DNA from: a virus
Strand: one strand, 5' to 3'
IMG/VR virus record: IMGVR_UViG_3300044691_000850
Location: 1 to 29,601 of that record
Length of the DNA: 29,601 nucleotides
A model generated the notes under the pieces. That model did not search any database, was not told the DNA's origin, and worked only from the letters and a program-made list of their open reading frames with translations. Position numbers and translations under genes: made by a program. Positions 8,796-13,250 of this stretch are shown here, piece by piece; the first letter of the stretch is position 1, and the number at the start of each line of letters is the position of its first letter.

Positions 8796-9176
8796 ATGAC
8801 GACACTGACCGAAGGCCGCCACGCGGCGGAAGGCGTTATCTTCGAGGAGGAAGCCCAGTATTCCCGCAAGGTGGTGACGGTGCACGGCGGTTATACCGGC
8901 GCCGCCAAAATCAACGCCATGACGGTGCTGGGCAAGCTCACCTCGGGCGGCAAGTTTGTGCCGTCGCCGGCGTCCGGCGCCGACGGGTCACAGACCGCCG
9001 TTGCGATCAACCTCTATCCGATCGATCCGACGCTGGCCGATGTCGATGCGGTCGTTTTGGTCCGCGCATCGGTCGTCGCCGCCGCCGCCCTTTCCTATGA
9101 AGCGACGGTCGATACCGACAACGAGAAGGCCGCCAAGGCGTCCCAGCTCGAAGCCGTCGGCATCGTCGTTCGTTAA
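8796..9176 (+). CDS. Head decoration protein, lambda gpD type
   Basis: The 126-residue protein (lambda gpD is 110) shows the gpD pattern: a flexible N-terminus (ILFEEE-like VIFEEEAQYSRKVVTV), an 'AMTVLGKLTSGGKFVP' strand pair, and a C-terminal 'ADVDAVVLVRASVVAAAALS' core. The trimers stabilise the expanded capsid at its three-fold sites. The ATG at 8796 follows CAGGAGACAGTGAA, with AGGAG nine bases upstream. The gene lies between scaffold and major capsid genes, as in lambda. Confidence 0.88.
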   Translation: MTTLTEGRHAAEGVIFEEEAQYSRKVVTVHGGYTGAAKINAMTVLGKLTSGGKFVPSPASGADGSQTAVAINLYPIDPTLADVDAVVLVRASVVAAAALSYEATVDTDNEKAAKASQLEAVGIVVR

Positions 9177-9238: not shown

Positions 9239-10261
9239 ATGTCCGAAGTTTTCGACGTCTTTAATGAAGACCCCTTCACCGTGGTCAGCCTGACCGCGTC
9301 CGCCAACCGGATGCCCTTTGTGCCCGGCCAGGTCTCCTCCTCCGGCCTGTTCGAGGAGGACGGCGTGCCGACCACGACAATCCTGGTCGAGGAGCTCAAC
9401 GGCTCGCTGTCGATGATCGCACCATCGCCGCGCGGCGGTCCGGGCGAAGCGATCGCCCAGGACAAGCGCAGCATGCGCTCGTTCGTGATCCCGCACTTCC
9501 AGCGCGATGACGCGGTCATGGCGGACGAGGTGCAGGGCGTGCGCATGCTCGGCATCAACAATGCTCTGGAAACGGTGCAGAACCGGGTCGACGTCAAGAT
9601 GGGCCGGCATTTCCGCGATCTGGATACCACCCTCGAGCACCAGCGGGTCGGCGCCATCAAGGGCGTCATCACCGACAAGAACGGCGGCGCCATGTTCGAC
9701 TTGTTCGCCACCTATGGCATCAGCGCGCCGGCCGATATCGCCTTCGCGCTGACCACCGACACCACCAAGGTCCGGCAGCTCACCCTCTCGGTCATCACCA
9801 CGATCGAGGACGTACTCCAGGCGGCGAGCTATGGCGGCATTCGCGGCTATTGCGGCAAGACCTTCTGGAGCAACCTGATCGAGAACAAGTCGGTCAAGGA
9901 GACCTACCTCAACACCGTGCAGGCGCAGGAACTGCGCGGCGATCCCAGTGCCAAGGAATTCGAGTTCGGCGGCATCACCTTCGAGCGCTACCGCACCGGC
10001 TCGAAAGCCGCCGCGGCCAGCGCCGGCGGCGCGTTCATCGGCGATACCGAATGCCGCTTCGTCGTCGAGGGCGTCCCGGGCCTGTTCCTCACCCGGTTTG
10101 CGCCGGCGGACTATGAGGAGACCGTCAATACCATCGGCCTGCCGCGCTACGCCAAGCAGTATGCGATGCTGAACGACAAGGGCCGCATGCTGGAGATGCA
10201 GTCCAACCCGATCAACATCTGCACCCAGCCCAAGACGCTGCTGCGCGGCGTCGGCAGCTGA
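9239..10261 (+). CDS. Major capsid protein, lambda gpE type
   Basis: The 340-residue product is almost the same length as lambda gpE (341). Recognisable stretches include DVFNEDPFTVVSLTASANRM near the start, 'RSMRSFVIPHFQRDDAVMAD' in the middle, and the C-terminal 'GLPRYAKQYAMLNDKGRMLE' followed by 'MQSNPINICTQPKTL'. The protein takes the HK97 fold and forms the icosahedral shell. The start has CCGGAG about six bases upstream. No separate delta-domain is visible, which fits a separate scaffold. Confidence 0.92.
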   Translation: MSEVFDVFNEDPFTVVSLTASANRMPFVPGQVSSSGLFEEDGVPTTTILVEELNGSLSMIAPSPRGGPGEAIAQDKRSMRSFVIPHFQRDDAVMADEVQGVRMLGINNALETVQNRVDVKMGRHFRDLDTTLEHQRVGAIKGVITDKNGGAMFDLFATYGISAPADIAFALTTDTTKVRQLTLSVITTIEDVLQAASYGGIRGYCGKTFWSNLIENKSVKETYLNTVQAQELRGDPSAKEFEFGGITFERYRTGSKAAAASAGGAFIGDTECRFVVEGVPGLFLTRFAPADYEETVNTIGLPRYAKQYAMLNDKGRMLEMQSNPINICTQPKTLLRGVGS

Positions 10262-10275
10262 TCCGTTAGCGATCG

Positions 10276-10905
10276 ATGCCGACGACCTGGTGGACCGTCG
10301 CGCCCGAATGGCAGGGCGAGACGGTCTTCATCGTCGGTGGCGGTCCCTCCGTCACCGGCCAGGACATCGAGTTATTGCGCGGCCGCAAGGTCATCGCCGT
10401 CAATTCGAGTGGCGGCGTCGCGCCGTTCGCCGACCTGCTGTATTTCGCGGACGGCCGCTGGTGGCGCGAAAACAAGCCGTCGGTCGCCGAGTTCAAAGGC
10501 CGCGTCATAACCACATCCGACGAAGTCAAAAATCAGCCGGGCATTCTGCTGCTACAGCGCAGGTATCCACCGGGACTTGCGGTCAATCGGTCGGAACTGA
10601 CGGTTCTGAAGACGGGAATGACGGCGGCGATCAATCTAGCGGTTCATCTCGGCGCCGCGCGCGTCGTGACGCTTGGGCTCGATGGTGGTCCAGCCGAGGA
10701 CGGTCGCACGCACCATCATCGGCCGCATAACTGGGGCCAGATCGAAGCCAACTGGAAATTGCAGCGCGAGGAGTTGGCGACGCTCGTCGAGCCGCTGCGC
10801 GAGCGCGGCGTCGAACTCGTCAACGCGTCGCCGGGTTCCAAAATCTCTTTATGGCCGATCATGAGTTTGGCCGATTATCTCAAAACGGAATGCGTGAACG
10901 CATGA
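10276..10905 (+). CDS. MptE/DUF115-like Rossmann protein
   Basis: The 209-residue protein begins with a nucleotide-binding-like loop (VFIVGGGPSVTGQDIELLRG) and continues VIAVNSSGGVAPFADLLYFA followed by DGRWWREN. It then has 'TGMTAAINLAVHLGAARVVT' and a C-terminal 'GVELVNASPGSKISLWPIMS'. This order is seen in a widespread phage protein family related to DUF115/MptE-like proteins and, more remotely, to GT42 sialyltransferases. Its activity is unproven; nucleotide-sugar or pterin chemistry are both conceivable. It overlaps the next gene by ATGA and starts 14 bases after the capsid stop, so it shares the head operon. Confidence 0.65.
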   Translation: MPTTWWTVAPEWQGETVFIVGGGPSVTGQDIELLRGRKVIAVNSSGGVAPFADLLYFADGRWWRENKPSVAEFKGRVITTSDEVKNQPGILLLQRRYPPGLAVNRSELTVLKTGMTAAINLAVHLGAARVVTLGLDGGPAEDGRTHHHRPHNWGQIEANWKLQREELATLVEPLRERGVELVNASPGSKISLWPIMSLADYLKTECVNA

Positions 10906-11837
10906 ACAAGGCGGCCCTGTTGGTCAGAGGGATGCACGGGCTCGGCGACAATCTGCACCAGCGCGCGGCGCTGCGGCAGTTGATGCAACGCCATGATGTA
11001 TGGCTGGAATCGTCGTGGGTGGCGCCGTATTGGGATCTGATCGGGCAGGGGCTCAAGATTGTACGCAAGGCAACGCCGCTGCGCACCCAAACCAAGAATG
11101 CGGAGCGCGAGGCGGCGTTGTTCACGAAGCTCCCGGCACCGGTGAAGGTGCCGCATATGCAGGCCTGGTATCGGCCGGAGGAGGTGCGTCGCCGCGGCTC
11201 GGTGCTGGCGGCAATGTGTGCCAGCCTGAATTGTGATGAGGCTGCCGCCGACTTCCGGCTGCCGCTGCCGCGGACATGGTTCGATCGCGTCGACACGCTG
11301 ATTGCGGGTTGGCGACCGTCGAAGCCGATCCTGATCTACCGGCCGCTGGTTGAGCGGAAGGAGTGGAGCGGCTGCGCGGCCAGGAATCCGGATCACGCCG
11401 GCTATTCTGAACTGTTCGCTTCACTGCGAGACCGGTTCTTCGTGGTGTCACTGGCTGACCTTGTGCCCGGCATCGAATGGATTGTTGGGCGCCCGGTCGC
11501 AGCCGATGTGACGCTGCACCAAGGGGAGTTGGACTTCGAGGTTATGGCGGCGCTGTTCGCGCGCGCCGCGTTAACGTTCTGTTCGCCCGGGTTTGCCGTG
11601 ATCCTGAGCCAAGCGGTGGGTACACCGGTAATCTGCACCTTTGGCCGCTATGAGCGCGCCTATTCGTTCTCCGCCGGCGCGCGGCTTTCCCCGTATCTCG
11701 GCATCGAGCCGGTCCATCCCTGTGACGATTTCAGGCATGACGACGTCGGCGACAAGACCATCGATCTGCCGCGCGCGCTGGCGATGGTGAACGCCTTTGT
11801 CGCCAGCGATGGGAGCTTTGATGATCGCGCGGCGTGA
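10902..11837 (+). CDS. GT9-like (heptosyltransferase-type) glycosyltransferase
   Basis: The 311-residue protein has a GT-B-like two-domain layout. The N-terminal domain starts ALLVRGMHGLGDNLHQRAAL, matching the acceptor-side loop of ADP-heptose transferases. The C-terminal domain has 'FVVSLADLVPGIEWIV' and the donor-site-like 'FCSPGFAVILSQAVGTPVI'. Such enzymes transfer sugars from nucleotide donors to LPS or other acceptors. The substrate here is unknown. It starts at an ATGA overlap and ends by overlapping the next gene by 17 bases. Sitting between capsid and connector genes, it may modify the virion or the host surface; this is inference. Confidence 0.7.
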   Translation: MNKAALLVRGMHGLGDNLHQRAALRQLMQRHDVWLESSWVAPYWDLIGQGLKIVRKATPLRTQTKNAEREAALFTKLPAPVKVPHMQAWYRPEEVRRRGSVLAAMCASLNCDEAAADFRLPLPRTWFDRVDTLIAGWRPSKPILIYRPLVERKEWSGCAARNPDHAGYSELFASLRDRFFVVSLADLVPGIEWIVGRPVAADVTLHQGELDFEVMAALFARAALTFCSPGFAVILSQAVGTPVICTFGRYERAYSFSAGARLSPYLGIEPVHPCDDFRHDDVGDKTIDLPRALAMVNAFVASDGSFDDRAA

Positions 11838-12126
11838 GTTGCTATTGTGGGCGTTGTGGCCCCTGGGCCTGGTCGGCGGCGCTGCGCTGCGCCTGCACGA
11901 GAGGGCGATGGCGTCAAAAATCGTTCCACAAAAATATCGCAGGCAATCGATTCAATATTTCTGGACCGACGGGTCAGGCCGTTCCGGCAGCAGCCTTCAC
12001 GACGCTCCCGACGATGCGAAGGCCTACCTGATCTGGCCCGGCGCCGATCGCGTTGCCCGGCTTGGCGGCGGCCCCGTCAGCCCCGAGGCCGAGCGGATCG
12101 CGCGCGAAAAATGGGGAGTTGGCTAA
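11821..12126 (+). CDS. Small membrane-anchored protein (101 aa)
   Basis: The ATG at 11821 lies inside the end of the glycosyltransferase gene. An N-terminal hydrophobic helix (about residues 7-23, LLLWALWPLGLVGGAALRL) follows two arginines and may anchor the protein in the inner membrane. The rest is soluble and polar (QKYRRQSIQYFWTDGSG; AKAYLIWPGADRVARLGGGP). No family is recognised. Its place between a glycosyltransferase and a methyltransferase suggests a helper for that module. The exact start is uncertain because of the overlap. Confidence 0.5.
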   Translation: MIARRELLLWALWPLGLVGGAALRLHERAMASKIVPQKYRRQSIQYFWTDGSGRSGSSLHDAPDDAKAYLIWPGADRVARLGGGPVSPEAERIAREKWGVG

Positions 12127-12127
12127 G

Positions 12128-12781
12128 GTGACCACGCTCGCCCGACGATCGCCCGCGCCGATGCAATCGGTTGCGCCCGCCTATGTGCCGCCGCGGCGGC
12201 GATGCGTCACGCTGCCCGAGATGGCGCCGGTCGATCTGACCGGCCTGCACACCCGCTACGTACACCAGGGTGAGCTGGCGGCACTGATCCATCTGATCGG
12301 AAGCGTTCGCCCACGATCCGTCATCGAATTCGGCGCCAATTCCGGTCGGACGGCGAAAGCGATTTTGCGCAACGTGCCCGGTATCGAGCGCTATGTCGGC
12401 ATCGACGTGCCTCCGGGCTACGTGCCCGAGAAACAGGTGCAGAGCCGCGAGGTGCCGGACCGGCCAGGAGAACTCGCCCTGGACGACCCGCGCTTCCGCC
12501 TCTTGCTCGCAGGGCGCGGTTCACACGATCTCGCGCCCGATGATCTGCCTGACGCAGACGCGGCCTTCATCGACGGCGATCATTCCGCGCGCGGCGTGAG
12601 GCGCGACTATGCTCTTGCCAAGGCAAAAGTCAGACCTGGCGGCATCATCGTCTTTCACGATGACAACGGCCGAGACACTGTCGATGTGTCCCGCGTGCTC
12701 GACGAACTCGCCCATGGTGGCGCGCCCATCGTGCACGTCGATAGCACATGGCTTGCCTATGAGAGGATCGAGGCCGTTTAA
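12128..12781 (+). CDS. Class I SAM-dependent methyltransferase
   Basis: The 217-residue protein carries the Rossmann methyltransferase motifs in order: motif I VIEFGANSGRTAKAIL (about 65-80), an acidic loop GID (91-93), IDGDHSARGVRRDY (148-161) and GGIIVFHDD (171-179). The pattern resembles Methyltransf_24-type enzymes, often linked to glycans or small molecules. The GTG at 12128 has GGGGAG nine bases upstream; an ATG at 12161 is an alternative. It ends the enzyme insert of the head region. The target is unknown; a sugar added by the neighbouring glycosyltransferase is a reasonable guess. Confidence 0.75.
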   Translation: MTTLARRSPAPMQSVAPAYVPPRRRCVTLPEMAPVDLTGLHTRYVHQGELAALIHLIGSVRPRSVIEFGANSGRTAKAILRNVPGIERYVGIDVPPGYVPEKQVQSREVPDRPGELALDDPRFRLLLAGRGSHDLAPDDLPDADAAFIDGDHSARGVRRDYALAKAKVRPGGIIVFHDDNGRDTVDVSRVLDELAHGGAPIVHVDSTWLAYERIEAV

Positions 12782-12854: not shown

Positions 12855-13250
12855 GTGAGTTTCCTGCCGACGTCCAGAACCATTCAAAATCCAGTGCTGT
12901 CGACGCCCGGGGCCGAACCTGCCGCCCCCGTCCTTTCGCCGTCACAGCAGCTTGACGGTCACCTTGCATCGGCGATCGCCGAATTGTCCTCAACGAAAGT
13001 CACATCGATGACAGCGCCCGCTCCAGGAAGCTTCGCCGCCAGCCTTCGCGCCATGATGGAAGAGGCCCGCGCCGGTATCGCCCAGGCGAGATCGGATGGT
13101 CTCGCGAAGGTCGGCGAGGCAGTCCAGAAGTTGAACGACGCCAAGCTGCAGACCCAGCAGGTCACGGGTTCAATGGCCAAGACGATTGCGGACGAGGCTG
13201 ATGCAGTCCTGGCCGAACTTGGTCAGATTTCAAACCTTCCGCCCGAGTGA
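12855..13250 (+). CDS. Helical structural-region protein (131 aa)
   Basis: The GTG at 12855 has AAGG seven bases upstream. A Pro/Ala-rich N-terminus is followed by long amphipathic helices (SLRAMMEEARAGIAQARSDG, then GEAVQKLNDAKLQTQQVTGS and TIADEADAVLAELGQISN) likely to form a coiled coil. Related proteins seem to be common in Rhizobiales prophages between capsid and connector genes. Its length equals that of lambda gpFI, which has the same map position, but I see no sequence likeness, so only positional analogy can be claimed. An in-frame ATG at 12759 would overlap the methyltransferase gene. Confidence 0.6.
   Translation: MSFLPTSRTIQNPVLSTPGAEPAAPVLSPSQQLDGHLASAIAELSSTKVTSMTAPAPGSFAASLRAMMEEARAGIAQARSDGLAKVGEAVQKLNDAKLQTQQVTGSMAKTIADEADAVLAELGQISNLPPE

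Follow-up and report, generated by a model that had tools for sequence, protein, structure and literature searches.

Virion glycosylation by phage-encoded glycosyltransferases has been described for the mycobacteriophages Che8 and Rita (Freeman et al. 2023, as presented in PMC11256854 and PMC12619734), where, according to these accounts, the predicted target is the capsid or another virion protein. In their F1 relative Maravista, the glycosyltransferase genes are placed by the same accounts near the 3' end of the genome, whereas the GT42-like, GT9-like, and methyltransferase genes analyzed here lie behind the capsid gene of phages of proteobacteria. The hdm operon of phages P1 and P7 (hdmB, hdmC, and hdmD, or pmgO, pmgP, and pmgQ) likewise encodes MptE-like proteins followed by a glycosyltransferase within a morphogenesis operon; however, that glycosyltransferase is HdmD-like in place of the GT9-like enzyme and methyltransferase found here, and the P1/P7 genes are labelled as head morphogenesis only. 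The Gtr serotype-conversion cassettes of temperate phages also comprise phage-borne glycosyltransferases, but neither GtrA (PF04138) nor a GT2/GtrB-type enzyme (PF00535) was detected in 20 phages carrying the present cassette, some records of which may be fragments, and the location in the late head genes is different. Among bacterial enzymes, the BAHT family member TibC is a protein O-heptosyltransferase with a catalytic Asp110 and a four-cysteine iron finger (PMC4358343).

In this study, we report an analysis of a three-gene cassette in a 29.6-kb virus record (IMGVR_UViG_3300044691_000850; 29,601 nt, hereafter the window), and of its relatives in annotated phages, viral contigs, and bacterial genomes. 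We propose, with moderate confidence, that the cassette constitutes a late-expressed, modular, and swappable module for glycosylation of virion proteins. Co-location of phage glycosyltransferases with virion genes, a criterion used for virion glycosylation, is observed at this locus. The cassette was not found described as a system in the open-access literature, to which the search was confined, and the same holds for its combination of enzymes, its location after the capsid gene, its gene fusions, and the exchange of its partners.

Gene layout and predicted enzymes of the cassette

The late operon of the window is lambda-like, with the gene order terminase, portal, S49 protease, decoration protein, gpE-type capsid protein, cassette, neck, tail, tape measure, and endolysin. 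The genes for the head decoration protein (8811..9176, plus strand; phrog_49, 2.1e-15), which is a possible acceptor, and the gpE-type major capsid protein (9239..10261, plus strand; Phage_cap_E, 5.5e-97; phrog_29, 8.7e-59), which is a candidate acceptor, are followed after a 14-nt gap by the cassette. An earlier note on this DNA had placed here an insert of four genes, encoding an MptE-like protein, a GT9-like glycosyltransferase, a small membrane protein, and a methyltransferase. Both the location, on the plus strand between the capsid gene and the neck and tail genes, and the identities of the three enzymes were borne out; the small membrane protein and two of the proposed gene starts were not.

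The first gene (10276..10905, plus strand) encodes a 209-aa MptE-like protein (phrog_4603, 2.2e-30), whose score with the Pfam MptE-like model is 17.6 bits, below the cut-off of 34.6 (E 0.0035). No match to the Pfam CST-I family was obtained, the MptE-like model being the only one reported at E<=1, and sequence profile searches of the PDB gave no significant match. A scan with the single protein as query found nothing, and its relatives were recovered only with alignment queries. The structural model of this protein (pLDDT 94) has the sialyltransferase CstII as its best fold match (4.5e-5, probability 1.00), followed by human ST8SiaIII, and MptE itself, a 6-hydroxymethylpterin diphosphokinase, is not among its first 50 fold matches. 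Residues G23, S25, D59, D136, H146, and N183 are invariant in 34 relatives. The window protein thus shares with GT42 (CstII) and the Pfam MptE-like family a Rossmann-type fold and a GxGPS-type motif near the N-terminus, but differs from them in lacking a CST-I match and in its sub-cut-off MptE-like score. Based on the model, it is predicted to be a glycosyltransferase of the sialyltransferase (GT42-like) fold.

The second gene (10902..11837, plus strand) encodes a 311-aa GT9-like glycosyltransferase of the GT-B type (phrog_6804, 4.7e-30). Its start, previously placed at 10851, was corrected to the ATG at 10902, which overlaps the stop codon of the MptE-like gene by 4 nt (ATGA), and the same overlap is present in several other phages. 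Neither Pfam (at E<=1) nor NCBIfam models matched this protein, and profile searches of the PDB yielded no significant match and no match to a PDB glycosyltransferase. Its AlphaFold model (pLDDT 95) resembles GT9-type GT-B enzymes, with TibC as the best fold match (4.8e-9), followed by WaaF (3e-8) and WaaC, at probability 1.00 and a TM-score of about 0.6. Asp16 of the GxGD motif is invariant in 48 of 48 relatives and, by its position in the motif, would be equivalent to the catalytic Asp110 of TibC. Most relatives also possess a C-x-C...[H/C]...C-x-K cluster near the C-terminus, which recalls, but differs from, the four-cysteine iron finger of TibC. This cluster is mostly lost in the window protein and its nearest relatives, as at the loci L010, L012, and L013; at 11721-11757 the window encodes PCDDFRHDDVGDK in place of the family motif PCxCFSHxHxCxK and retains a single cysteine. 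The likeness to BAHTs such as TibC (PMC4358343) therefore extends to the fold, the GxGD-type aspartate, and, in most relatives, the C-terminal Cys/His cluster. On the other hand, sequence similarity to TibC is undetectable, the Cys/His spacing is different, the protein opens directly with the GT-B domain and has no N-terminal beta-barrel, and there is no autotransporter substrate.

The third enzyme gene (12128..12781, plus strand) encodes a SAM-dependent methyltransferase of the Methyltransf_24 family (PF13578, 6.7e-12), which probably starts at the GTG at 12128 rather than at 12053 as previously assigned. A weak match to TIGR04371, a putative sugar O-methyltransferase (0.0015), and a profile akin to those of small-molecule O-methyltransferases of the PDB suggest a sugar O-methyltransferase, and there is a partial match to phrog_2675, annotated as DNA methyltransferase. 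The same gene follows the GT9-like gene in many phages, and this slot holds two families, the Methyltransf_24-like one of the window and another present in D3, Psp6, and Eowyn.

The small ORF of about 100 aa between the latter two genes (11809/11821..12126, plus strand), which the earlier note had counted as a membrane protein of the system, lacks relatives, both among the loci compared and in a dedicated scan of viral contigs, and its N-terminal hydrophobic stretch is borderline. As judged from these comparisons, the system is one of three genes, with this ORF outside it on present evidence. A small helical protein without a PHROG match is encoded next to the methyltransferase gene (12855..13250, plus strand); a look-alike, judged by eye, sits between the GT9-like and methyltransferase genes of L010. 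No promoter-like site was found between 8700 and 13500 of the window, and terminator-like sites in this region are no more numerous than in shuffled sequence; therefore, the three cassette genes are likely co-expressed with the capsid gene. A library of defence systems gave no meaningful match.

Recurrence, linkage, and exchange of the cassette genes

Among annotated phages, the GT9-like gene occurs in 14 records. In the annotated records examined, all three genes are present in Psp6, D3, PMG1, D14C, P7869, Mulvp2, and Eowyn, and the order in Psp6 (capsid, MptE-like, GT9-like, methyltransferase, and connector) is that of the window. KpGz_1 and KpHz_2, compared for the MptE-like and GT9-like genes, have neighbouring matches to both. 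The remaining records are further copies of these, with the exception of BUCT-ZZ01, which has the GT9-like and methyltransferase genes without the MptE-like gene, some 1.2 kb downstream of a T4-like neck gene. For a broader set, 80 of 342 GT9-like relatives found in viral contigs were fetched, 32 loci from bacterial genomes, mostly of alpha-, beta-, and gammaproteobacteria, were added, and clustering at 90% identity resulted in 69 non-redundant loci with 2.5-kb flanks. The MptE-like gene was found in 55 of these 69 loci, the methyltransferase gene in 54, and both in 50, so that co-occurrence across phages, which the earlier note had itself put forward as a check, was confirmed.

Gene fusions link the same partners. 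The MptE-like and GT9-like proteins are fused as one ORF in 11 of the 69 loci, the GT9-like protein is fused to the methyltransferase in L056, and all three domains are found within a single protein of about 1000 aa in L106 and L107. Proteins combining GT9-like and methyltransferase domains are also encoded in L064 and in L060, whose 944-aa protein has further GT-A-like and MptE-like-looking parts, as read by eye. The values of dN/dS for all three enzymes are about 0.1-0.25, consistent with purifying selection, with synonymous sites near saturation in the pairs that include the window. Such conservation in dozens of phages, together with purifying selection, places the three-gene set far beyond chance.

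Cassettes are flanked upstream mainly by genes for major head proteins, portals, and proteases and downstream by those for neck and connector proteins, and they span the unrelated capsid families gpE, HK97-type (PF05065), and Phage_capsid_4/gpT-like. To avoid choosing loci by the cassette, we used a control sample of 62 head modules for which capsid sequence was the only criterion. The GT9-like gene is present in 18 of them, in all 18 with MptE-like and methyltransferase genes behind the capsid gene (Fisher 3e-7, uncorrected for relatedness). Eight other modules combine the MptE-like gene with a glycosyltransferase similar to P1 HdmD, six have the MptE-like gene with neither glycosyltransferase, and 30 have none of these genes. 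The GT9-like and HdmD-like genes were never found together, and neither occurs without the MptE-like gene in any of the 62 modules (Fisher 4e-12, likewise uncorrected for relatedness).

The four cassette states require 12 changes on the capsid tree. Close capsid relatives such as L143, L144, and L145 have different partners, and the methyltransferase families are exchanged even where the capsids are close relatives (L144 versus L145 and L152). Relatives of the window capsid itself either carry the cassette (L128 and L130), carry the MptE-like gene without the GT9-like gene (L134 and L138), or show no cassette gene within 6 kb downstream of the capsid gene (L131-L133, L136, L137, and L139). Phylogenetic pair tests had at most four pairs on supported branches and remained below significance, as there are too few independent contrasts. 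As judged from this distribution, the cassette is an optional, exchangeable module.

Not all cassettes are placed after the capsid gene. The cassette precedes the terminase genes in enterobacterial loci such as L080, and in another class the GT9-like gene lies behind tail genes, without the MptE-like gene, beside genes for GDP-mannose dehydratase, an epimerase, and UDP-galactopyranose mutase, neighbours that tie the GT9-like family to nucleotide-sugar metabolism. The tail-side loci (L036, L053, L057, L059, L060, L064, L067, L069, and L072) represent phage sugar-nucleotide clusters, with GDP-mannose 4,6-dehydratase, epimerase, UDP-galactopyranose mutase, FkbM, and radical-SAM genes among the neighbours.

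Proposed virion glycosylation and alternative functions

The scheme that we infer for the catalytic activities, acceptor, donor sugars, order of steps, late expression, and biological benefit of the cassette is as follows. The genes would be transcribed together with the head genes late in infection, and the MptE-like and GT9-like enzymes would draw on host nucleotide sugars to link a short glycan to a head protein, to lengthen it, or both. The simplest acceptor would be the major capsid or decoration protein encoded next to them, as suggested by gene position and the TibC-like fold. The methyltransferase may then O-methylate a sugar, thus capping or diversifying the glycan, and exchangeable partner enzymes would produce different glycans on related capsids. 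The earlier suggestion of a sugar, perhaps methylated, on virion proteins gains support from the linkage, overlap, capsid-adjacent position, fusions, and TibC-like fold of these genes, while its acceptor and sugar are conjectural. A protein glycosyltransferase as the best fold match of the GT9-like protein supports a virion protein as the acceptor. Further points in favour of virion glycosylation are the recurrence of the cassette in unrelated head modules, the carbohydrate enzymes encoded alongside it, the decoration gene within the cassette of L010, the exchange of methyltransferase families between related capsids, and the intact motifs and purifying selection of the enzymes. Evidence against virion glycosylation includes the cassettes off the capsid position (L080, and L036 to L072 for the GT9-like gene behind tail genes), the six capsid-linked loci with the MptE-like gene but neither glycosyltransferase partner, and the loss of most of the family Cys/His motif in the window.

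Modification of the host LPS or LOS core, late in infection or in lysogens, to block re-adsorption of released virions or superinfection is the main rival, although we consider it unlikely. Enzymes of GT9 (WaaC/WaaF) and GT42 (CstII) modify the LPS/LOS core within the cytoplasm without requiring a flippase, and the fold matches of the GT9-like protein include WaaF and WaaC. A GT9 and methyltransferase pair in three P. aeruginosa prophages has also been interpreted as modifying DNA or O-antigen (PMC10449497). The earlier note had offered LPS modification as its alternative, and this was weakened: the absence of GtrA and GT2/GtrB-type genes from the 20 cassette phages, some of them possibly fragmentary records, disfavours Gtr-type conversion, leaving core modification. 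Against the latter stand the place of the cassette in the late head operon with no promoter-like site of its own, its occurrence across alpha- to gammaproteobacterial hosts, whose LPS cores differ, and the protein glycosyltransferase as the closest fold of the GT9-like protein.

It is improbable that the MptE-like protein is a capsid assembly or maturation factor without glycosyltransferase activity, accompanied by hitchhiking accessory genes. In the sample chosen by capsid sequence its gene immediately follows the capsid gene, also in the six loci without GT9-like and HdmD-like genes, and its P1/P7 homologues are labelled head morphogenesis; however, it is missing from 30 of the 62 related head modules and is fused to a GT9-like domain in many phages. 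Moreover, P1 pmgO and pmgP, which were matched to P7 hdmB and hdmC by position and tblastn, are nonessential (PMC10695390), which fits a role in modification better than one in assembly. Hypermodification of phage DNA by base glycosylation and methylation, to which the partial phrog_2675 match and annotations in D14C-like prophages could point, is very improbable given the small-molecule (Methyltransf_24/23) type of the methyltransferase, the late head-gene position, and the lack of a thymidylate-synthase-type hydroxymethylase in 20 cassette phages (control genomes were positive; some records may be fragments).

Extending virion glycosylation beyond the window, we tentatively suggest, at slightly short of even confidence, that proteobacterial phages share a widespread, modular capsid-glycosylation locus, in which a GT42-like gene is anchored behind the capsid gene and its interchangeable partners are either a GT9-like gene together with a methyltransferase from one or the other of two unrelated families, or an HdmD-like glycosyltransferase. 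In many tailed phages, the shell probably bears a custom, exchangeable sugar added by enzymes that the phage itself encodes. If this is correct, virion glycosylation would be a common and exchangeable trait of proteobacterial phages and not a mycobacteriophage curiosity, with a bearing on phage stability, immune recognition, and interactions with host surfaces, and glycan coats would differ between closely related capsids, in what would be the phage equivalent of serotype switching. Capsid-adjacent glycosylation would then be hidden under labels such as alpha-2,3-sialyltransferase, DNA methyltransferase, and head morphogenesis, and the annotation of much-studied phages (P1, P7, and D3) would change.

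Accessory genes and candidate acceptors

Several genes intervene within the cassettes. A TylF-type methyltransferase (L029), pyruvyl transferases (L033 and, weakly, L074), and a sulfotransferase (L125) are glycan-decorating enzymes. In L010, whose GT9-like protein is nearest to that of the window, a lambda-D-like decoration gene lies between the MptE-like and GT9-like genes; its 428-aa product (L010 5667-6950) carries the lambda-D-like decoration domain (PF02924) at the N-terminus, ahead of a long C-terminal part.

Two candidate acceptors were rejected. The S/T/P-rich SSASPAAPASPKQT-like tail of a small ORF between the capsid and MptE-like genes was considered as a conserved glycosylation site; that ORF overlaps the MptE-like gene, and the motif is read as an out-of-frame copy of the MptE ASGPS codons. 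Genes with collagen-like Gly-X-Y repeats were considered as a general acceptor and occur in 17 loci, only 11 of them among the 69 non-redundant ones; a control scan with a capsid-region protein of L050 recovered only three loci. The collagen-like genes (L028 4750-5583, L029 4295-5071, L050 5085-5732, L055 4881-5510, L075 4903-5904, L021 1625-2689, and L023 2017-3291) lie between the head genes and the cassette, and several continue into a shared C-terminal domain (GSFWIAQRDT-like). Their products are possibly fibre-like virion proteins and alternative acceptors.

Tetraselmis viridis virus S20 (L009), whose record names a green alga as the host, yet whose genome is that of a tailed phage, encodes two MptE-like proteins together with glycosyltransferases and a methyltransferase in the interval from the capsid gene to the head-closure genes. 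An assembly titled Chryseobacterium (L116) contains a cassette that closely resembles those of Pantoea (L115 and L117), and contamination or a wrong title is likely. HNH endonuclease-like genes were found inside the cassette in L028 (6498-6992, HNH and AP2 by Pfam) and, by eye, in L054 (7977-8468) and L087 (7861-8397); homing endonucleases often insert in this manner. The GT9-like gene of a Mixta prophage is interrupted by about 1.8 kb of other sequence (L123 7588-9400). Finally, the gene immediately upstream of the GT9-like gene in D3-like Pseudomonas phages is annotated as anti-CRISPR (L007 5665-6021 and L091 4662-5021), so that accessory genes of other kinds enter at this site as well.
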